The notes under the pieces are model-generated. The model was not told the origin of the DNA. It saw nothing but the letters and a program-made list of their open reading frames with translations, and did no database searches. This document shows, piece after piece, positions 3,515 through 28,123 of a stretch of 32,240 nucleotides of DNA. The translations under genes and the position numbers were made by a program. The stretch comes from Winogradskyella sp. (GTDB lineage: Bacteria > Bacteroidota > Bacteroidia > Flavobacteriales > Flavobacteriaceae): contig NZ_JAOARH010000073.1 in the NCBI RefSeq assembly GCF_025210595.1, positions 1-32,240 on the forward strand, read 5' to 3'. How positions within the stretch are numbered: the first letter of the stretch is position 1; each line of letters starts with the position of its first letter.

Positions 3515-4816
3515 TTACTTTGCATTATAATACTCATTAACCACTTCTCTACGCTTTCCAGAATTTAATAACGGAATATCATCTACATAATTAATCTTAA
3601 CGATAGCATCTTCACCAAAATAAGACTTATACTCTTCAATAAGTTGTATCTCATCTACTTTTTCATCGGTATTAAGGTTAATCTCATACTCTTTCAAGCC
3701 TTTTTGTACCAACTGAAACTGCTTATAATTACCATATTTACAAAGCTTGGCAGAAATATGTGATGGCACTAAATTGCCTTTTGTATCATACAATAAGTCT
3801 AATACTCTACCAGATATTTCAGAGAAAAAAGGCTTATTGTTTTCATCTAACTCCATGACGCCAACATCTCCTGTATCATATCTTATAAGTGGTGTTGCTA
3901 GATTGTGCAAATCGGTTACTACAATTCTTCCTCGTTCTCCGTAACCTAACTTCTTGTTAGAATTAAGGTCGAAAATTTCGACGATGTAACTCGATTCATT
4001 AATTTTAAATCTTAAATCATCAGTTACTGTTTGTTGTGCTATAATTCCATTTTCATTATTAGAATATCTAGACATTGGTTGTATTCCAAAATACTTTTTA
4101 ACTAAGTTTCTAGTATAATCATTTAAAGCCTCTGAAATTGTAATTATTGATTTTGTTTTGAATGCTATTGGATTTTCATTCAACGTATCGAGGTACTTGC
4201 ATATTTTTTCAAAAGAAGAAGCATATCCAATAAAGCAAACTTCGGATGTTTGTCTATTCAACTTTTCAATAAATGCTTTTATTTCATCATCAGATAAATT
4301 AAAAACACTTAATGGCTGCATATTTTTTAGCTGAAATTCTACACGCTTCTTTAGGCTAAAACTATCAGACCAAATTTTCACATAGATCAAATGATCACCT
4401 AAATTATAATTTGATTTTGATGAAAAATAGATGTTATCCGCAATATTTTTTTGAAGCTTTTCTTTATTGTGATAAACACTAAATGGAGAACCTGTAGAAC
4501 CACTAGTTGATACTTTTCTACATTTAGAAATATTATATTTTGAAGATATAAAATCATCAAAATTATCTCTTATAATATTCTTATTGATAATTGAAAAGCC
4601 ATCTAAACCATCTTGCACATTGTGTTTTTTGTAAAATTGAGTAGTAGAAACTGCGTGATTTAATAATTCTTTGAGTGAGCCTTCTATTGCTTTTTTATTG
4701 TCTTTTGGATTATCTAGTAACCTTTGCGTATTAGCTAAAACCTTATTAATTGGCTTACCGCTTACAGCATCTTTTAGCCAAAAAAATTGTTGTCTAAGGT
4801 TTATTCCTCTTTTCAT
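3515..4816 (-). CDS. CapK/PaaK-like adenylate-forming enzyme (copy 2)
   Basis: Paralogue of the enzyme encoded at 819-2174, with the same motifs: SGSTGSPF (residues 105-112 from this start), SRYSNNENGIIAQQ, TPLIRYDTGDVG, FSEISGR and the C-terminal LNSGKRREVVNEYY containing the catalytic lysine. Both are expected to adenylate a carboxylate during surface-glycan decoration. The start ATG at 4816 (MKRGINLRQQ) gives a few residues before the conserved NLRQQFFWL segment. An ATG at 4837 would add seven residues with no counterpart in the paralogue. It is the first gene of the minus-strand operon with the membrane protein and copy 1. The 138 bp upstream contain no clear TAnnTTTG box. The two copies are clearly diverged, so they probably have different substrates or act as a heteromeric pair. 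Confidence 0.83.
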   Translation of the reverse strand: MKRGINLRQQFFWLKDAVSGKPINKVLANTQRLLDNPKDNKKAIEGSLKELLNHAVSTTQFYKKHNVQDGLDGFSIINKNIIRDNFDDFISSKYNISKCRKVSTSGSTGSPFSVYHNKEKLQKNIADNIYFSSKSNYNLGDHLIYVKIWSDSFSLKKRVEFQLKNMQPLSVFNLSDDEIKAFIEKLNRQTSEVCFIGYASSFEKICKYLDTLNENPIAFKTKSIITISEALNDYTRNLVKKYFGIQPMSRYSNNENGIIAQQTVTDDLRFKINESSYIVEIFDLNSNKKLGYGERGRIVVTDLHNLATPLIRYDTGDVGVMELDENNKPFFSEISGRVLDLLYDTKGNLVPSHISAKLCKYGNYKQFQLVQKGLKEYEINLNTDEKVDEIQLIEEYKSYFGEDAIVKINYVDDIPLLNSGKRREVVNEYYNAK

Positions 4817-4920
4817 TATAATATAATTGATAGCCAATAAACCTTAACATGCTAATTTTAAGACTTATACTACAATTATAACAAAAAGTTTTTCTTTTAG
4901 TTATAATTATGGATAAAGTG

Positions 4921-14218: not shown

Positions 14219-15039
14219 ACCTGCCTATAAGGATACTTTAGTTTTAGCGTTGTACCATTATTCTTTTGAGACTCTAATTGAAATTGGGCATTAATTAATT
14301 CAGCACGTTTTTTCATATTCGTCATTCCTGCACCTTGCTGTACACGTTTTGTATCAAAACCAACACCATTATCTTTAACATTAATATTAAGCCTTTCTGG
14401 TGTATAATCTAGATCAACTTTTAGAGAATCTGCTTCAGCATATTTTAAGGTATTTGAGAAAAACTCTTGCAGAATTCTAAATAAAATAATTTCATCTTTT
14501 TGGTTTTCTAAATTTGCCTTTTCGCCATTAACATTAAGAACAGCTTCTATTAAACCAGATTTATTTAAACGGTTTATTTCATTCTGTAAAGTAGCTTCTA
14601 AGCCTAAATTAAAAATTACATCGCTATTTAAAGACCTAGATAATGCTCTAACTTCTGCTAAACTTTCTTTTAAAGCTTCTGAAGCATTACCCACTTTAGA
14701 CTTAACATCATCTCCAGCAACTTTTACCACACTATTCATCTGCATTGATGCAAAAGCCAGCAACTGTCCAACATTATCGTGTAATTCTCTCCCAACGTGC
14801 ATTAAAGTTTCTTCTTGTATTTCTTGTTGGGTTTTGGTAAGCTCTTCCTCAAACGCTTGTTTCTGCTTTATTTGCTCTACAAGCAGTTGATTTTTTCTTT
14901 TTTGAAATACTGTAAAAAAGACTACAAATGTACCAACCAACACTAAAGTAAAGAAAATAACATAAGTAATTAAAGCGATTTCTTCAGCTTTAATTTCTTC
15001 TTGTGATATAGTGAAAATAAGAAAGCAAAAACGTAACAT
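14215..15039 (-). CDS. Sensor histidine kinase, LytS/NarL-type (HisKA_3)
   Basis: Membrane-anchored histidine kinase of 274 residues. It has one transmembrane helix (about 21-43, IALITYVIFFTLVLV), a coiled linker, the HisKA_3 motif GRELHDNVGQLL with phospho-acceptor His87, and a HATPase domain. The ATPase shows the N box with Asn196 in LQEFFSNTLKY, the G1 box DNGVGFD (223-229) and the G2 box GAGMTNM (236-242). There is no extracellular sensor domain. The first 70 bases overlap the 3' end of the upstream membrane-protein gene, so translational coupling is likely and that protein is a candidate sensor. Usually such kinases are followed by a LuxR-type response regulator; here none is adjacent, because the next gene is the convergent pseudouridine synthase. 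The start is uncertain, since homology probably begins near residue 17, but no other start codon is available. Confidence 0.88.
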   Translation of the reverse strand: MLRFCFLIFTISQEEIKAEEIALITYVIFFTLVLVGTFVVFFTVFQKRKNQLLVEQIKQKQAFEEELTKTQQEIQEETLMHVGRELHDNVGQLLAFASMQMNSVVKVAGDDVKSKVGNASEALKESLAEVRALSRSLNSDVIFNLGLEATLQNEINRLNKSGLIEAVLNVNGEKANLENQKDEIILFRILQEFFSNTLKYAEADSLKVDLDYTPERLNINVKDNGVGFDTKRVQQGAGMTNMKKRAELINAQFQLESQKNNGTTLKLKYPYRQV

Positions 15040-15695
15040 GAGTATAGTATTATATTAGATACAGAAAGGGTTATACGCCTAAAATCAATAAAATCAGGAT
15101 TTATAGTGCTAAAATATTCATTATAAAAAAACAACGGTGTCATACAAATGTAAAATAACATCATTGCTATACAAATATAGAAAACATGAGATTTATAAAA
15201 ATTTAGAATTTCATCACTCTGTACAAGCTCTCTAAGATACATTAGTACCATGGCAAAAAGAGCAATTGTAAAAATAGCCATATCATATTCAATAATCGTT
15301 TTAAAAAAACTTCCGCTAATAACATGATATAACACAAAAAAACTAAAGCTTAACCAAAATACTACATTTATAGTCTTGTGCGAAAACTTTGTATGTGTAT
15401 TCCTTTTTATAAAAATCCAAAATAGCAATATGGTACCAGGATCATATATATTATAAATCCAAGTATTTCTTCTCATAAACGAGTGTTCTAACCAATTAAT
15501 TAGCGTATTATCTACTCTACCATACAAATAAGGATACATAGCTAAAGTTTCTATAACAACAACAAACCATAAATACCATACAAATGGTCTTATGGCTTGT
15601 TCTTTAGTTTTAAACCAAAAATAAGAACCCGACAAAGCAGCAAATAACTCGAATAAATGAATTAAAATCAATTCTAGTTCTAGTTCTAATTTCAT
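14970..15695 (-). CDS. Multi-pass membrane protein, tandem copy B (next to kinase)
   Basis: Integral membrane protein of 241 residues with about seven hydrophobic segments and an N-terminal MKLELELELILI run. I do not recognise a named family. Residues 1-75 are identical to copy A except His13/Tyr13; after MR at 74-75 the two diverge abruptly. The C-terminus (SLYHKKKLKLKKSL) is lysine-rich and cytosolic-looking, and its coding bases overlap the kinase start by 70 bases. The arrangement, a 7TM-like protein coupled to a kinase without its own sensor domain, suggests a two-protein sensor; this is inference. A TAAATTTG box and a hairpin-rich leader precede the ATG. Confidence 0.72.
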   Translation of the reverse strand: MKLELELELILIHLFELFAALSGSYFWFKTKEQAIRPFVWYLWFVVVIETLAMYPYLYGRVDNTLINWLEHSFMRRNTWIYNIYDPGTILLFWIFIKRNTHTKFSHKTINVVFWLSFSFFVLYHVISGSFFKTIIEYDMAIFTIALFAMVLMYLRELVQSDEILNFYKSHVFYICIAMMLFYICMTPLFFYNEYFSTINPDFIDFRRITLSVSNIILYSCYVFAFLFSLYHKKKLKLKKSL

Positions 15696-15771: not shown

Positions 15772-16494
15772 TTAAAGTTTAATTTTTTTCTTGTGATATA
15801 GTGAAAAGAAAAATGCAAAAACGTAACATGAGTATAGTATTATATTAGACACTGTAAGGGCAACACGTCTAAAATCAATAAAATCAGGATTTATAGTGCT
15901 AATATATTCACTATAAAAAAACAACGGTGTCATACAAATGTAAAACAACAACGTTACTATGCAAATATAGAAAACATGAGATTTGTAGAAATTTAGAATT
16001 TCATCACTTTGTAAAAGTTCTCTAAAATACATCATTACCATAGCAAAAATAGTAAATGTAAAAATAGCCACATCATATTCATTGATTGATTTAAAAAAAT
16101 TACCATTAACAATCAAATACAAAATGTAAATCACAAAAAAACTAAAACTGAACCAAAACACTACATTTATAATTTTGTGTGAAAATTTTGTACTTGTATT
16201 TTTTTTTATAAAAATCCTAAATAGTATTATAGTGCCCACATTATAGAAATGATAGATCCAAGAATTTTGCCTCATAAACGAGTGTTCTAACCAATTAATT
16301 AGCGTATTATCTACTCTACCATACAAATAAGGATACATAGCTAAAGTTTCTATAACAACAACAAACCACAAATACCATACAAATGGCCTTATGGCTTGTT
16401 CTTTAGTTTTAAACCAAAAATAAGAACCCGACAAAGCAGCAAATAACTCAAATAAATAAATTAGAATCAGTTCTAGTTCTAGTTCTAACTTCAT
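15772..16494 (-). CDS. Multi-pass membrane protein, tandem copy A
   Basis: Paralogue of the preceding membrane protein: 240 residues, about seven hydrophobic segments, the same MKLELELELILI start and a lysine-rich end (SLYHKKKIKL). It is conserved with copy B over residues 1-75 and at SDEILNFYKSHVFYIC and NPDFIDFRR. The duplication includes about 85 bp of upstream leader and promoter, so each copy has its own regulatory region. Beyond the common MLRFC-like overlapping frame, this copy has no kinase after it; that frame stops after about 16 codons. Copy A may be a redundant or specialised version of the putative sensor. No known family name. Confidence 0.72.
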   Translation of the reverse strand: MKLELELELILIYLFELFAALSGSYFWFKTKEQAIRPFVWYLWFVVVIETLAMYPYLYGRVDNTLINWLEHSFMRQNSWIYHFYNVGTIILFRIFIKKNTSTKFSHKIINVVFWFSFSFFVIYILYLIVNGNFFKSINEYDVAIFTFTIFAMVMMYFRELLQSDEILNFYKSHVFYICIVTLLFYICMTPLFFYSEYISTINPDFIDFRRVALTVSNIILYSCYVFAFFFSLYHKKKIKL

Positions 16495-21874: not shown

Positions 21875-23293
21875 TTAAAGTTTGAATTGCAATCCGAATA
21901 AAAGCCTAAACTGTGTGTTTTTAAAATCCTGAACCTTTGTATCTATTGGTTTTTGAAAATAATTATAGCTTGGTTCTACAAACAAAATTGCTTTCTTAGT
22001 AAGATTATAAGACAAATTTGAGTTTATTAACGCACCAAACACTGTACTACTTACACCTAAATTTTCACCAATTTCTTCATCGTTGAGATAGGCTTTGTTT
22101 TTTGCTATAAAATTTACATTACCACCAAAACCAAGAGCAACACCAAACCTATTTTTAGAGATTATTTTATACGAAATTTCTAATGGCACCTGAATATAAT
22201 CTAACTGCTGTTGCAACGTTCCATTTTCGGTAATCTCATCAGGCGATGATAATGTATCAGCAAATTCTGGTGATCCAAAAAACAAAACAGATTCATCATT
22301 TACAATATTCAGGCTATTTTCTGTAGAAAATGAATTTCCCAAACCTACACTTGCACTAGCATAAGCAATATTATTAATTTCTTGCCCTAAACTATTTTTA
22401 CCAATACCTGTTTTAACAATTAACCTATCTGAAACAGCATAACCAACCTTAAAGGCATAAACAAAATCATTCTGTGCTGTTGTATTTATTGACGCACCTT
22501 GCAAAGATGCATCTGAAACAGTATTAGATAATCCTCCCAAAACTTCTACAGACCATTTAGCAGCATGTGCGGCTTTAACACTTAAAGTATCGCTCTCGTT
22601 GTTGTTTTCCGCCATTAACTCTTTAGCTATATCCAATTCTACATCTGCTTTGGCTTTAGAAATAGAATCATTAACAGCAATTGCTGTTTCTTTTTCATTA
22701 TCTATTATGCTTTTATTATCGCTTTTTAAATTAACAGCATCTTTAATATTGCGTTTAAGGCTTTTATCTTTTGCAATATTTTGCGCATAATTTTCTGTTA
22801 CATTAGGCTTTTCGGTGGTTTTATTAAAATTTTCCTCTTTTTGCTGTTTGGTGAATTTCTCAATACGCCTGTTCTTATTTTGTTTATCTGAAAAATCGCT
22901 GTTTACTAATTGATCTTTACTCGTTGATTGCTGTAAAAGATTTTTAGCTTCATTTGTTATTGCATCAAAAGAATCTTTAGTTGTTTCATTTGTAATAAGT
23001 TCTTCAACTACTTTAATAGGTTGCGACTCTACACTATTCGCTTCTATTGTATCCATAGAGTGCTCTACATCCGAAATTTCCTTAATCGGCTTATTATTCT
23101 CAGCTGAATTAGTAAGCATATACCCAACAAAAACTATCAGTATAGCTGCAGCAGATCCCCAAAACCAGAAAATTCCTCGTCGTTTCTTTTTAGGAAGAAG
23201 CCTTGCTTCTATATTATCCCACAATTCTTTAGGAGGCTCCTTAGAATAGGTTTTTAGTTCGCCATATATATCTTCTATATCATCCTTCTTCAT
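21875..23293 (-). CDS. Trans-envelope protein: anti-sigma-like head, one helix, beta-barrel
   Basis: 472-residue protein with three parts. Residues 1-40 are a charged cytosolic segment (IEDIYGELKTYSKEPPKELWDNIEARLLPKKKRRG), as in anti-sigma-type proteins. Residues 41-61 are one transmembrane helix (IFWFWGSAAAILIVFVGYML). Residues 62-245 form a long Lys/Asn/Glu/Ser-rich periplasmic linker. From about 247 the sequence turns into alternating beta strands (WSVEVLGGLSN, FVYAFKVGYAVSD, IKTGIG-like turns) ending RLLFGLQFKL, as in 8-strand outer-membrane barrels. It overlaps the preceding ECF sigma gene by 14 bases, so it is the likely regulator of that sigma factor. A single chain spanning both membranes is unusual but recurs next to ECF sigma genes in Bacteroidota. 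No zinc-binding motif is seen. Confidence 0.7.
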   Translation of the reverse strand: MKKDDIEDIYGELKTYSKEPPKELWDNIEARLLPKKKRRGIFWFWGSAAAILIVFVGYMLTNSAENNKPIKEISDVEHSMDTIEANSVESQPIKVVEELITNETTKDSFDAITNEAKNLLQQSTSKDQLVNSDFSDKQNKNRRIEKFTKQQKEENFNKTTEKPNVTENYAQNIAKDKSLKRNIKDAVNLKSDNKSIIDNEKETAIAVNDSISKAKADVELDIAKELMAENNNESDTLSVKAAHAAKWSVEVLGGLSNTVSDASLQGASINTTAQNDFVYAFKVGYAVSDRLIVKTGIGKNSLGQEINNIAYASASVGLGNSFSTENSLNIVNDESVLFFGSPEFADTLSSPDEITENGTLQQQLDYIQVPLEISYKIISKNRFGVALGFGGNVNFIAKNKAYLNDEEIGENLGVSSTVFGALINSNLSYNLTKKAILFVEPSYNYFQKPIDTKVQDFKNTQFRLLFGLQFKL

Positions 23294-23843
23294 GACACTT
23301 TTTACTTAATTCCTCATTAATTTTTACCCTTAATATGCTTTTTGCTCTACTTAACAACGATTTTGAAGTTCCTATTGCTATATTCAATTTTGTTGATATT
23401 TCCTTATGACTATAACCCTCAAAAACAAAGAGATTGAATATCATTCTATAATTATCTGGCAATTGTTGTATATACTTTAATAATCTATCTTGAGGCACAT
23501 AAACATCAACGGTATTAGTAGAGACTTCAACACTATTATCTTCATTAGCATCTTCTATTGCAATATATAATTGACGTTGTTTTTTTCGCAACACCTCTAA
23601 CGCTTCATTTACAAAAATGCGTTTTGCCCAGCCCTCAAAACTTCCTTTAAATTTGTATTGGTCAATCTTTTGAAAAAGAATAATAAAGGCATCTTGAAAC
23701 ACATCATCAGCTTCGGTTTTATTTTTCATATACTTTAAACAAATACCATACAACACAGGAGAAAGCAACGTGTATAATTCGCGTTGCCCTTCCCGATTTT
23801 TATCCACACATTTTTGTATGAGTATTCGTAGTTTATTATCCAA
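23280..23843 (-). CDS. ECF-type RNA polymerase sigma factor
   Basis: Sigma-70 family factor of the extracytoplasmic-function group, 187 residues. Region 2 spans about residues 22-92 (YTLLSPVLYGICLKYMKNKTEADDVFQDAFIILFQKI, GSFEGWAKRIFVNEALEVLRKKQR), with the -10-recognition DDVFQDAF segment. Region 4 spans about 122-180 (LLKYIQQLPDNYRMIFNLFVFEGYSHKEISTKLNI, SRAKSILRVKI), a helix-turn-helix. There is no region 3 or C-terminal extension. The start is TTG at 23843; an in-frame stop a few codons upstream excludes any earlier start. It overlaps the trans-envelope protein, which is the expected anti-sigma partner. A 7-bp inverted repeat (23908-23930) lies upstream and may serve autoregulation. Confidence 0.93.
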   Translation of the reverse strand: MDNKLRILIQKCVDKNREGQRELYTLLSPVLYGICLKYMKNKTEADDVFQDAFIILFQKIDQYKFKGSFEGWAKRIFVNEALEVLRKKQRQLYIAIEDANEDNSVEVSTNTVDVYVPQDRLLKYIQQLPDNYRMIFNLFVFEGYSHKEISTKLNIAIGTSKSLLSRAKSILRVKINEELSKKCHEEG

Positions 23844-23946: not shown

Positions 23947-25224
23947 TTAAAATTGAACTGTACTAATAAGCTCTAGCCCAAAGTTATCAGCATAATTGTA
24001 CTGATGAATTACATTTTCTCCAACAGAAATAAGGTGAGACGACAACGGAATAACATCTTTTGCTTCAACATTGTAGGTGTTTTCCAATACTATCGCATTA
24101 GGATTTTGCGCATTAAACACGTTTATACCCATATCATTACACACATATAAGACCTCATCTTTAACACCTAAACCATAAGGGCTAGATAAAAAGTAAGTTG
24201 AATATTCTACTGGCGACGTAATGTCTGAAACATCAATAACATTAACCTGATCTTCAATTGCTCCACAACTATTTCCACCTCTAACTGTAATATACGCTGT
24301 ATCTTCTTCAACAACTACAGGATCACAACCTGTTGCATGCAAAAAAGACGATGTATAAGTTGGATTAAATTCATCTTGTAAACCAACAATATGCATACCA
24401 TTTGTTGCACCAATAAACATATATTCCTTTCTAATAAATGTTGTCTCTAACTCACCACCAAACCAACTTTCCATCCAAGTTTCTGAAACTTGAGTAATTG
24501 CACTATAGTTTGTAATGTCATAGGTTAATAATGAATAATCACTTATAGTGTAAAGCGCATTATTAAAAATCTGAAACTTAGCATATGAACCACCTACACC
24601 AACTTCATTTGATAAAGCTAATCCATCAAAATTACCTAAGAAAATATCAGAATTCCAACCATAGATATCAGGATTGTTTTCAGCCTCTTCCCTTTCCATA
24701 TATACTGTGTCATAATAAGCAACAAATTCATCGTTATCTGTTGGATAAACATTAGACTGATAATATAATACTTCATTAGGAAACGTTGCATAATATGGCA
24801 GTATATCTTCTTCTACATTAACCATTTGAATGTTTGACAAATCACTAATATCAAAGACTACCAAATCCATAAAATTATCTGCATACAAAATATTATTCTT
24901 TACAGAAATATCATTAACTCCTTCTAATTGGATAAATGCTAAATTTTGTGGTGATGCAGGATTTTGATTATTAAAAATATGTATACCTGAGTTTTGTGCT
25001 ATATAAAACAACAGATCTGTATAAACATATATTTTTCCATCAGAGTTTGTTGTTTGTGCACTTTCTATAGAAATTGAATTTCTAAACTCTGACTTGTTCA
25101 TTATCACAGGAACTGTTACAGCAACCGGATCTACAAATTCAGTGGTATCATCATCTTTATCGCAGTTGGTTAATTGAAAACATACTGCAATTAAAAGAAC
25201 TAAAGGGAAAATTTTATACTTCAT
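23947..25224 (-). CDS. LVIVD-type beta-propeller lipoprotein
   Basis: Secreted lipoprotein of 425 residues. The signal peptide ends in the lipobox LTNC (residue 21), followed by an Asp-rich tether (CDKDDD). The rest has repeating strands of the LVIVD pattern, for example NNILYADNFMDLVVFDISDLSN, NALYTISDYSLLTYDITNYS, MFIGATNGMHIVGLQD, DQVNVIDVSDITSP and EVLYVCNDMGINVFNAQNP, which would form a beta-propeller. Function is unknown; such proteins are probably exposed binding proteins. No neighbour is close enough for an operon: the sigma gene lies about 100 bases away on the same strand, and upstream is a 308-base region without a gene. Confidence 0.82.
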   Translation of the reverse strand: MKYKIFPLVLLIAVCFQLTNCDKDDDTTEFVDPVAVTVPVIMNKSEFRNSISIESAQTTNSDGKIYVYTDLLFYIAQNSGIHIFNNQNPASPQNLAFIQLEGVNDISVKNNILYADNFMDLVVFDISDLSNIQMVNVEEDILPYYATFPNEVLYYQSNVYPTDNDEFVAYYDTVYMEREEAENNPDIYGWNSDIFLGNFDGLALSNEVGVGGSYAKFQIFNNALYTISDYSLLTYDITNYSAITQVSETWMESWFGGELETTFIRKEYMFIGATNGMHIVGLQDEFNPTYTSSFLHATGCDPVVVEEDTAYITVRGGNSCGAIEDQVNVIDVSDITSPVEYSTYFLSSPYGLGVKDEVLYVCNDMGINVFNAQNPNAIVLENTYNVEAKDVIPLSSHLISVGENVIHQYNYADNFGLELISTVQF

Positions 25225-25341
25225 AACAACTATTTTATTATAAGATGAAAAAAATACAAAAGGTTGCAGTTAGCTTTGAAAAAATATTCGTTAATCTGTA
25301 ATATTATGAGAATTCAATTCCTATTGATATTAATATAAGAG

Positions 25342-25361
25342 ATTCCTGCGAAAGCAGGAAT
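25342..25361. repeat. GAAA-tetraloop hairpin repeat
   Basis: An 8-bp perfect stem closes a GAAA tetraloop. It resembles the 'ATTCCTGCGAAAGCAGGAAT' intergenic element common in Bacteroidota and other bacteria. It lies just after the stop codon of the comM remnant and probably followed the original comM 3' end. Confidence 0.6.
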
Positions 25362-25364
25362 TGT

Positions 25365-25447
25365 TTAGCCCAACCAACCTTCTCTATCTAAACTTCTGTA
25401 TTGAATAGCCTCGCTAATATGATTTCCGAACACACTTTCAGAGCCTT
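25365..25447 (-). pseudogene. Remnant of the comM 3' end (83 bp, with stop codon)
   Basis: The 83 bases match 26584-26666, the true end of comM, at 81 positions. The differences are one synonymous base in the last glycine codon (GGC for GGG) and one change giving Phe for Ile. The remnant keeps the reading frame of the last 27 codons and its own TAA. Immediately upstream in the reading direction an in-frame TAA appears, so it is not expressed as a protein. It flanks the WG-repeat gene as a direct repeat of the intact comM end. Confidence 0.9.
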
Positions 25448-25532
25448 ATAAATATAATATAGCTAACTAGTTTAATTAAACAACCTCTTATTATAGACAG
25501 TTTTCAAACACATTCTAATTTTAAAAAGCATA

Positions 25533-26513
25533 TTATTCCTTTTTCATTAGGGTATCTAGATCTAACAATATCTTCGCCTTATCCACATTATAAGGAATAA
25601 CCATTTTATTTTTATCATTAAACACAGAATATTCATTATTCTTCCGTACTAAAAAATATACTCCGTTAGTCACACCTAAATCTTTAGTAGTAAAATAATA
25701 ATCTATTTCGTCATAATCTATGGGTAAAACCTCTTTTGAATTAAAATCAAATACACCATATTTTTGATTTAATTTAACAATCACGTATTTATCAGCTTCA
25801 GATTGATAGCTCTTATAATGCAATTGAATAATTTCATCATATATAGCTTCTAAAATTACTCTTTGATCATAAAAAAAACCTTCTTTTTTATCACTCACTA
25901 ATAACATCCCTTTAGTTCTACCCAAAAAGCCCATCTCCTGAATATTGTCATAAATCATTGGAGCTACAATACTGTAATTTCTTCCAATTATCCCATACTT
26001 ATTATTCTTTTGGGCTATGAAAATTTCATTTTTTAAATCAAAATATTTGATAAAATCATACTCTAATGGAACTAAAACATTGAAATTAGGATCAATAATT
26101 CCAGTTTTAGCATTCTTTGAAACTACATAGTGCTTAGATTCTTCGAAATTATTTACAAAATAATTATTACACTTTGCAAAATATCCTTCCCTCTTCTTCT
26201 TATAAAAAAAAGTATAACATTTAAATTTATCCTTTTCATCAACCATAATATATTTAGCCCTATAATTAAAGTAATAAAGGTGCTTAAATTTCTTTTTTTT
26301 ATCTATTCTTTTCTTCTTCTTATCGTAAAAATAGAATGTAGAGTCATTATTAGAAATAGCTAAATCGTATTGCTCAACTCTTTTGAGCACATCATCAAAA
26401 GCAGCATACTGAGGTTCATAAAGATATATAGTATCCTTTACAGGTTTTTGAGAATAAACGAATTTAAACGATATAAGAAATAAGGCTATTATTGCTGAAA
26501 ACTTATTAATCAT
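25533..26513 (-). CDS. Secreted WG-repeat protein, inserted behind comM
   Basis: Protein of 326 residues with a signal peptide (MINKFSAIIALFLISFKFVYS, then QKP); the ATG at 26513 is chosen because the longer frame begins at a TTG inside the comM terminator. The mature protein is rich in Lys and Tyr. It has degenerate WG (beta-stranded) repeats, for example KTGIIDPNFNVLVPLEYD, KYGIIGRNYSIVAPMIYD, and KYGVFDFNSKEVLPIDYD. WG-repeat proteins are of mostly unknown function, often secreted and sometimes neighbouring effector genes. The gene stands alone between two copies of the comM 3' end and appears even more AT-rich than its neighbours (judged by eye), which suggests acquisition. Confidence 0.78.
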   Translation of the reverse strand: MINKFSAIIALFLISFKFVYSQKPVKDTIYLYEPQYAAFDDVLKRVEQYDLAISNNDSTFYFYDKKKKRIDKKKKFKHLYYFNYRAKYIMVDEKDKFKCYTFFYKKKREGYFAKCNNYFVNNFEESKHYVVSKNAKTGIIDPNFNVLVPLEYDFIKYFDLKNEIFIAQKNNKYGIIGRNYSIVAPMIYDNIQEMGFLGRTKGMLLVSDKKEGFFYDQRVILEAIYDEIIQLHYKSYQSEADKYVIVKLNQKYGVFDFNSKEVLPIDYDEIDYYFTTKDLGVTNGVYFLVRKNNEYSVFNDKNKMVIPYNVDKAKILLDLDTLMKKE

Positions 26514-26538
26514 ACTCAAAAATTTTTTAGACAAAAAT

Positions 26539-26559
26539 CATTTTTAATAATTAAAAATG
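26539..26559 (-). terminator. AT-only palindrome after comM
   Basis: A 21-base perfect palindrome, CATTTTTAAT-A-ATTAAAAATG, lies 25 bases after the comM stop, followed on the minus strand by ATTTTTG. It is probably a weak terminator for comM. It overlaps the leader of the WG-repeat gene. Confidence 0.5.
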
Positions 26560-26583
26560 GTAGTAAAATTAAAGAAACTTATT

Positions 26584-26666
26584 TTACCCCAACCAACCTT
26601 CTCTATCTAAACTTCTGTATTGAATAGCCTCGCTAATATGATTTCCGATCACACTTTCAGAGCCTT
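26584..26666 (-). repeat. Direct repeat unit: intact 3' end of comM
   Basis: This copy ends the full-length comM gene and is repeated at 25365-25447, offset 1,219 bases, with two mismatches. The WG-repeat gene is the only gene between the two copies. Confidence 0.9.
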
Positions 26667-28123
26667 CTAAGTCTGCTATAGTCCTAGCAACTTTTAGAAT
26701 TCTATCATAAGCTCTTGCTGATAGGTTTAAGCGTTCCATCGCAGATTTTAGTAACTGTAAGGATGCATCATCTAACTTACAGTATTCACGTATTTGTTTG
26801 GTATTCATCTGCGCATTATAATGCACATTTTCTAGATTTGAGAAACGTTGTGTTTGCAGCTCTCTTGCTAAAGTCACTCGCTTTCTTATGTCTACAGAAG
26901 ATTCACCTTTTCTGTCATCAGATAGCTTTTCAAAAGGTACAGGAGTTACTTCAATATGTATGTCTATACGATCTAATAATGGTCCTGAAATCTTACTTAA
27001 ATAGCGTTGCATTTCAGCAGGACTAGAGGTTACTGGAGCATCAGGATCGTTAAAATATCCTCCTGGACTCGGATTCATACTAGCCACCAACATAAAAGAA
27101 CTTGGATACGTCACTGTAAATTTTGCTCTAGAAATCGTAACTTCTCTATCTTCTAAAGGCTGTCGCATCACCTCTAAAACTTCGCGTTTAAACTCTGGAA
27201 GCTCATCCAAAAACAACACACCATTATGCGATAAGGAAATTTCTCCTGGCTGCGGATAGCTTCCACCTCCGACTAAAGCAACGTTACTTATAGTATGATG
27301 AGGGCTACGAAACGGTCGTTGTGCCATTAATCCTGCATGTGCTTTAACTCGACCTACAACGGAATGAATTTTTGTAGTCTCTAAAGCTTCGTGCAAAGTC
27401 ATTGGTGGCAAAATACTTGGCAATCGTTTTGCCAACATAGTTTTGCCAGAACCTGGTGGACCAATGAGAATGATATTATGACCTCCTGCTGCTGCAATTT
27501 CCATACAACGCTTAATACTTTCCTGTCCTTTGACATCTGCAAAATCAAACTCTGGAAAATCGAGATTTTTATAAAATTCTTCCCGTGTATTGATAACGGT
27601 TTCCTCTAATGATTCCCCTTTATCAAAATGATGAATAACCTGCATAATATTATCTACACCATAAACCTTTAAACCATCTACTATTGCTGCTTCTTTTGCA
27701 TTTTGACTTGGCAGAATAAACCCTTTAAAGCTTTCTTCTCTAGCTTTAACTGCAATTGGCAAAGCTCCTTTTATGGGTTGCAAGCTTCCATCTAAAGATA
27801 ATTCGCCCATAATGAGATAATCTTCTAAATCTTCAGCTTGTATTTGATTAGATGCCGCTAAAATGCCAATAGCCAAAGTTAAATCATAAGCACTGCCTTC
27901 TTTACGCAAATCGGCAGGAGCCATGTTTATAGTAATCTTCTTTCCTGGAATTCTATAACCGTTATTCTGAAGTGCAGCTGCAATACGATAATTACTCTCT
28001 TTTATAGCATTATCTGGCAATCCGACCAAATGATACCCAACTCCTTTATCTACATTAACCTCAACGGTAACCGTTGAAGCTTCAACACCAAAAACAGCAC
28101 TAGCGAAAACTTTTTTTGAGCAT
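26584..28123 (-). CDS. comM: ComM/YifB-family Mg-chelatase-like AAA+ ATPase, 5' frameshift
   Basis: AAA+ ATPase of the YifB/ComM family; in Vibrio and Haemophilus ComM is a hexameric helicase that promotes branch migration during integration of transforming DNA. The expected order is present: N-terminal Lon-like domain (SAVFGVEASTVTVEVNVDKG, YHLVGLPDNAIKES), Walker A GPPGSGKT (about residues 221-228), a Walker B region (GVLFLDELPEF), and C-terminal LSARAYDRILKVARTIADLEGSE. The natural start is MLKKVFASAVFG at 28123, giving 512 aa, but the A7 run at 28111-28117 has one A too many, so this ATG runs into a stop after seven codons. The only in-frame upstream ATG (28185) lies inside the terminator of the previous gene. 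Either a one-base sequencing error or a real frameshift is present. The 3' end is duplicated at 25365-25447. Confidence 0.9.

Follow-up and report, generated by a model that had tools for sequence, protein, structure and literature searches.

ComM is a recombination helicase of DNA uptake, and for mobile elements the disruption of competence genes has been proposed as a protection against curing by transformation. Several described systems resemble parts of what is reported here. In Acinetobacter baumannii, AbaR and other elements break comM, and recovery of the gene by recombination has been considered and found not to be more frequent than chance (PMC11472951). The present loci are similar in that elements break the gene and an intact copy is possibly regained from other strains; they differ in that recovery in A. 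baumannii was sought as recombination tracts, whereas the orphan comM ends described here, in another phylum, would be direct scars of repair. Through TnsF, comM is also targeted close to Walker B by Tn6022 and Tsy, the latter leaving a 3' part of the gene beyond its cargo (PMC10293859). The target is the same, but those elements are Tn7-like or use a tyrosine recombinase, whereas the elements found here carry large serine recombinases. For the T6SS effector-immunity arrays of Vibrio cholerae, homology-facilitated illegitimate recombination has been proposed (PMC5361080). That process shares with our loci the homology-anchored additive insertion and the old 3' part displaced downstream; there the anchor is a T6SS cluster that contains effector genes, whereas here it is a housekeeping gene and the cargo is unrelated. 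The WHO elements at yeast FBA1 likewise comprise a whole gene, cargo and 3' fragments with recurrent starts (PMC7282813), but their cargo is one nuclease family, whereas the scanned cargo here has no nuclease in common. In Riemerella anatipestifer, transposon mutants of a YifB-family gene showed lowered transformation (PMC8459023). In a literature search that mostly left subscription journals uncovered, and is thus no proof, neither orphan comM ends nor serine recombinases in Bacteroidota comM were found described.

The comM locus of the window

The window, the whole 32,240-nt stretch of Winogradskyella sp. DNA that was analyzed, contains the following features around comM.

26584..28104, minus strand: intact comM, encoding a YifB-family Mg-chelatase-like AAA ATPase of 506 aa (Pfam Mg_chelatase, ChlI and Mg_chelatase_C)
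26584..26694, minus strand: proximal copy, the last 111 nt of comM, homologous to the part beyond the cargo
25533..26513, minus strand: cargo gene for a WG-repeat protein of 326 aa (Pfam WG_beta_rep, one stretch, E 3e-8)
25365..25473 (far edge approximate), minus strand: distal copy, representing the orphaned earlier end of comM, with 81/83 identity beside the stop
25342..25361, no strand assigned: terminator-like hairpin, 3 nt past the stop of the distal copy
23947..25224, minus strand: gene that directly follows comM in insertion-free relatives, without a Pfam match, which we take to be LVIVD-type
21875..23843, minus strand: presumably sigma-factor-like and anti-sigma-like genes, belonging to the variable module between comM and DUF2891

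Beside the stop, 81 of 83 nt are identical between the two copies of the comM 3' end. As direct repeats they occupy 25364-25462 and 26583-26681, with a start-to-start spacing of 1,219 nt and 93% identity over 99 nt, and since the last 200 nt of comM match the downstream DNA at E 7e-38 (blastn), the repeat is not a chance resemblance. Weaker homology extends to about -111 of comM (99 of 109 columns), and the copies combine a fresh right part, at 98% identity, with an old left part, at 64% over 28 columns (permutation p 0.003). Their differences show no third-position bias (1 of 6). The hairpin is the single terminator-like site within 25200-26800, where shuffles lead one to expect 0.5; it has 11 copies in the genome at no more than one mismatch, and a hairpin of the same kind lies 3 nt past comM in 3 of 68 loci examined (L058, L068, L098). 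As a general partner of orphan ends it was rejected, being present with 2 of 41 copies. The insert holds the WG gene alone, with no recombinase and no known element junction, its inner edge lies at -111 and not at -712, and neither a transposase nor terminal repeats were seen in the window. The sequence-only reading had proposed a duplication of the comM 3' end around one WG gene, a hairpin behind the far copy and an insert free of integrase, and for the window itself all of this proved correct. The genome is a draft of 157 contigs, which might suggest chance or an assembly artefact, but the same layout occurs in the one-contig genomes G122 and G111 and in many genera, and we give that explanation almost no credence.

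The distal copy can be identified as the original comM end because relatives have empty sites and because flanking sequences agree between two congeners. At 12 genus loci the counterpart of the next gene (window 23947-25224) starts 61 to 174 nt past the comM stop, with nothing inserted. In genome G103, the 70 nt past the distal copy resemble those past comM of its congener G333, the next gene stands at +70 in both, and the flank of the G103 proximal copy is by eye unrelated to that of G333. Locus L058 has its hairpin 3 nt past comM, just as the window has past its distal copy, and over 150 nt the global identity of the two flanks is not above that of shuffles. The far copy in the window is thus the old comM end, at a site that is insertion-free in relatives. 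Of 68 genomes in the genus, one carries the complete WG gene and two others have partial WG matches; a search for relatives in the named collection matched 43 stretches, 0 of them confirmed. Vertical inheritance of the WG gene together with both repeats was rejected on the strength of the 12 empty loci and the 1/68 distribution, so that the earlier reading of an addition behind an intact comM withstood the comparison with relatives.

Two further arrangements in the window were noted by eye. Adjacent, near-identical membrane-protein ORFs lie at 14970-15695 and 15772-16494, only one of them adjoining a histidine-kinase-like ORF, and paralogous ORFs of 440-451 aa lie at 819-2174 and 3515-4837, on either side of a membrane-protein ORF.

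Frequency and anatomy of orphan comM ends

Among the 66 genus genomes that have a comM locus, in some cases with little downstream DNA, two contain a tail copy of their own comM: the window's genome and G036. In G036 (L047), a 43-nt comM end (93%) is found apart from comM, at +5319 to +5361 from the comM stop, where it lies behind an anti-sigma-like gene and abuts the stop codon of a TPR gene; in other genus members that TPR gene sits directly behind comM. When other genus loci were scored for worn tails, values clearly above shuffles were obtained only for the window, L047 and L109, the last from another family, and L108 was marginal (28 versus a shuffle maximum of 23).

A wider search scanned 397 genomes of the family with a degenerate 30-nt pattern that represents the end of comM. 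The pattern occurred in 337 of them, two or more times in 39; 33 of the 397 (the window's own included) have at least two comM ends on the same strand of a single contig, within a span of 10.3 kb. A reversed control pattern gave 3 matches. In the rest of the order, 3 of 53 matching genomes outside the family had a second copy nearby. These counts are lower bounds because worn tails are missed by the pattern. Across 149 shared genomes, a second end downstream on the same contig was found 14 times for comM, 0 times for PanB and once for DnaK (Fisher p 4e-5 and 4e-4, respectively, for the enrichment of comM), an additional second DnaK row in G169 sitting on another contig. In 39 stretches of 20 kb, 3 of 487 genes had a tail match, at 70-76%, and were judged to be tandem paralogs from spacing and identity alone; a head match was found for 2 of 444 genes. 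The dnaK case (L200, G103:C8:632000-641500) consists of dnaK, an 870-aa ORF and a 92% copy of the last ~540 nt, and because of it the orphan-end layout is not confined to comM. G103 holds both this dnaK-end copy and an orphan comM end. The 3' end of comM is a real and recurrent hotspot: what the window alone had suggested as a place of gene exchange is borne out by the 33 of 397 family genomes with repeated comM ends, whose cargo is mostly unrelated.

The anatomy of the orphan ends was examined in 41 copies from 35 loci, kept under the rule that the end of a copy may be no more than 12 nt away from the stop of comM. This rule dropped, for example, pieces in L110, L119, L126, L128, L136 and L143 as well as DUF6090 DNA matches in L116, and loci L126, L139, L140 and L145 yielded no copy. 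A full-length comM frame is present in 30 of the 35 loci; L116, L124 and L136 begin with the 3' part of comM, the frame is broken in L141, and L121 runs off its contig. Inner edges span -42 to -717 of comM. An edge near -111 recurs in six copies (the window, L116, L117, L121, L124 and L138) by at least one of two alignments, and an edge at -701 to -717 in five (L118, L119, L128, L134 and L143); recurrence near -111 and -712 was indicated by a rough simulation that treats copies as independent and whose input edge at -948 is an artefact. Apparent splits at -111 in G172, G169 and G125 were left out because they look like contig breaks.

The cargo varies as much as the edges. From the intervals, 75 ORFs of at least 100 aa remained after removal of 10 comM pieces and 11 DUF6090 repeats, and the 70 scanned against Pfam are diverse: besides surface, regulatory and unknown proteins they include a HigB-type toxin and its partner, one OLD-type ATPase, a single resolvase piece and three Y1 transposases; no tyrosine integrase or recombinase was found among them. 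Thus, of the single-gene cassette proposed earlier, the addition stands and the fixed one-gene form does not, since mostly one to few genes are present and the inner edges vary. As a general description, a defense island was rejected: PADLOC, run on 10 proteins, matched L109, the L113 pair and, weakly, L128. Three further features of the intervals were observed. An IS200-like Y1 transposase, presumably RAYT-type, is the first gene after comM or its 3' part in L112, L116 and L118, from three genera; ten DUF6090-like ORFs lie between two comM 3' parts in L116 (G393, +1068 to +10197); and a TACACATTCGGGTG-like motif precedes five orphan ends (L123, L125, L131, L116) in four genera, once with unrelated cargo. 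Homing by a nuclease encoded in the cargo, as at yeast FBA1, would produce the same layout with recurrent fragment starts (PMC7282813), but 67 of 102 interval ORFs lack a relative elsewhere in the set, and a scan of 70 of the 75 cargo ORFs revealed no nuclease in common, which makes homing highly improbable.

Serine-recombinase elements that split comM

In relatives, comM is split by elements with serine recombinases. In five genomes the gene is split, with 11.7 (G180), 20.2 (G393), 11.3 (G108), 11.6 (G088) and 19.6 kb (G153) between the parts, the C parts of G108 and G088 having been placed from separate searches. A large serine recombinase with Resolvase, Recombinase and Zn-ribbon domains (Pfam) starts no more than 50 nt past the broken comM ORF in G088, G180 and G108, a recombinase homologue starts 69 nt past it in G393 (tblastn), and the G153 recombinase is located 13 kb into the element. 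The cut falls at the codons HHTISDV (about -712), some 80 nt away from the codons for Walker B at -633; in G108, which has a different recombinase, it falls at about -657.

Relatives of the recombinase in the named collection gave a consistent picture. For 12 of the 18, the surrounding locus contains a comM that is interrupted at aa 267-283, several of the 18 being genomes already counted here and so not all of them new cases. Among the 12, the N part is present in 9 (31-73 nt before the recombinase in 8 and at 890 nt in one) and the C part in 3; the remaining 6 of 18 are without comM in the examined stretch, two of them on short contigs. The elements inserted in comM therefore combine a recombinase beside one junction with a constant target place. 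The comM-cutting recombinases (L214-L220, L223-L226, L231; L210, L213, L209) occur in Flavobacteriaceae and also in Fluviicola and Aureispira. A serine-recombinase match no more than 250 nt from the edge of a comM fragment is also present in 8 of 43 viral contigs, where these comM edges lie at aa 209, 274, 325-343 and 375. L267 and L280 were rejected as comM fragments, because by eye they are comM-like domains in other proteins. A phage-like viral contig (L242, 9970-10113) ends in the 3' part of comM from about -130, with its letters partly masked; its proximity to the -111 edges is a lead only.

Proposed loss and restoration of comM

One class of orphan ends can be traced to such elements. 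In L119, L128 and L143, the inner edge reads by eye as a CACATTA-type stretch followed by GATGT, which is the right junction of split comM, whereas whole comM genes read differently at the -712 junction. The edge of L118 reads like the 3' part in L124, with a different flank, and L134 was missed by the junction pattern and has its edge at the same place. Because these edges carry a split-comM junction beside an intact comM, the orphan ends of the -712 class are leftovers of the element's far junction, and this class is thereby shown to originate as an insertion junction. Integrases are consequently part of the story elsewhere, if not in the window. In L119, a serine-recombinase piece of a family also present in the comM-splitting elements lies behind comM; the other tail loci contained no relative of the queried serine recombinases.

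Unless the element supplied a comM end itself, an intact comM beside such a junction has to be a restored one. An integrative element that carries a replacement comM 3' end, so that comM is never lost, and whose recombinase disappears later would leave the same end state, and G284, in which a whole comM is followed after 39 kb by a comM part from about -717, would fit it. Against this, the five split genomes show no replacement comM end past the N part, and no tyrosine-integrase match was found within 25 kb of comM ends on the comM contig in 13 genomes, the nearest being a 191-aa piece 28 kb from the comM end in G129; we consider such an element improbable. In the same contig, G284:C2 (L145, L204, L205, L124), the -717 part is followed by a 243-aa ORF and then by a comM end from about -110.

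The differences between the copies also bear on their origin. With the searched 45 nt excluded, 373 of 521 differences in 19 copies fall at third codon positions, so that intact and orphan ends look like two once-functional alleles; in copies shorter than 300 nt the figure is 45 of 95. Identity is high at the left in L143, L119 and L115 and high at the right in the window, L138, L134 and L118, and because it switches in either direction, one history does not fit all copies. Duplication of the comM end within a genome, followed by decay and gain of an unrelated gene, would account for the longer orphan ends being closest to their own comM and for the 99-100% identity of the L109 and L135 copies. 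Duplication also finds support in G103, where the two copies differ at 20 sites and the congener agrees with the proximal one at 13 of them and with the distal one at 5. The third-position bias of the long copies and the element junctions disfavor duplication as the origin of long copies, and overall we regard it as decidedly improbable. Against the congener, the proximal end of G103 scores marginally higher than the orphan end (399 versus 391 of 424 identical), which fails to mark the proximal end as foreign and counts against a restoration by foreign DNA.

The best reading, to which we assign a probability of about one half, is that an element breaks comM, foreign DNA restores it and the old end remains as a scar; it is preferred because of the element junctions and the third-position differences expected of two functional alleles. 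First, comM would be split by mobile elements that integrate at fixed positions within it, a step shown in relatives by the cuts near -712 and -657 with large serine recombinases. Next, comM DNA from another strain or species would recombine with the remaining 5' part and make the gene whole again; all or most of the element would be replaced, and a neighboring gene of the donor might arrive or remnants might stay. The recipient's old comM end, from the cut to the stop, would then remain with its original downstream DNA, a structure that is shown by the orphan ends, with the cut junction still readable in the -712 class. Later exchange between comM ends may explain why the window copies are nearly identical in the right 83 nt only. 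In 15 congener comparisons aimed at a restoring donor, the cargo was never found in the comM downstream stretch of a congener.

The main rival requires no element: in homology-facilitated illegitimate recombination, incoming DNA anchored in comM would join by chance inside the gene and leave the old end behind. Such plain additive recombination would account for the many kinds of inner edges between -42 and -717, the scarcity of recombinases in the cargo, the empty sites in relatives and the identity switches within comM in L143, L119 and L115. The dnaK case, which has no known element, likewise favors it and counts against restoration after breakage, just as the dependence of the third-position result on long copies counts against the reading as alleles. 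The chance-level recovery of comM by recombination in A. baumannii (PMC11472951) is a further point against restoration. On the other hand, element junctions are present in some members of the -712 class, and edges recur near -111 and -712 in the rough simulation. On balance, this rival is unlikely, though it deserves to be taken seriously.

The window shows the same end state as the loci in which comM appears to have been broken and mended: comM, the WG gene, the old comM end, the hairpin and the next gene. No element was found cutting at -111, or at most other edges; by analogy with the -712 class, we infer that the -111 edge in the window may have been an element's cut. The locus is likely to be such a scar, perhaps altered afterwards by exchange between its two comM ends, but it may instead be a product of plain additive recombination. 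More broadly, we tentatively suggest that in Flavobacteriales and other Bacteroidota comM has been broken repeatedly by several element families and regained via the very exchange that comM serves, each cycle leaving an orphan end, and often a new gene, as a countable record. If this is true, orphan comM ends would allow the regaining of a competence gene by its hosts to be counted across thousands of genomes and would show which DNA did the mending. They would also mark a place where unrelated genes arrive without an element of their own, and the family of comM-targeting serine recombinases with its split sites offers a concrete new lead.
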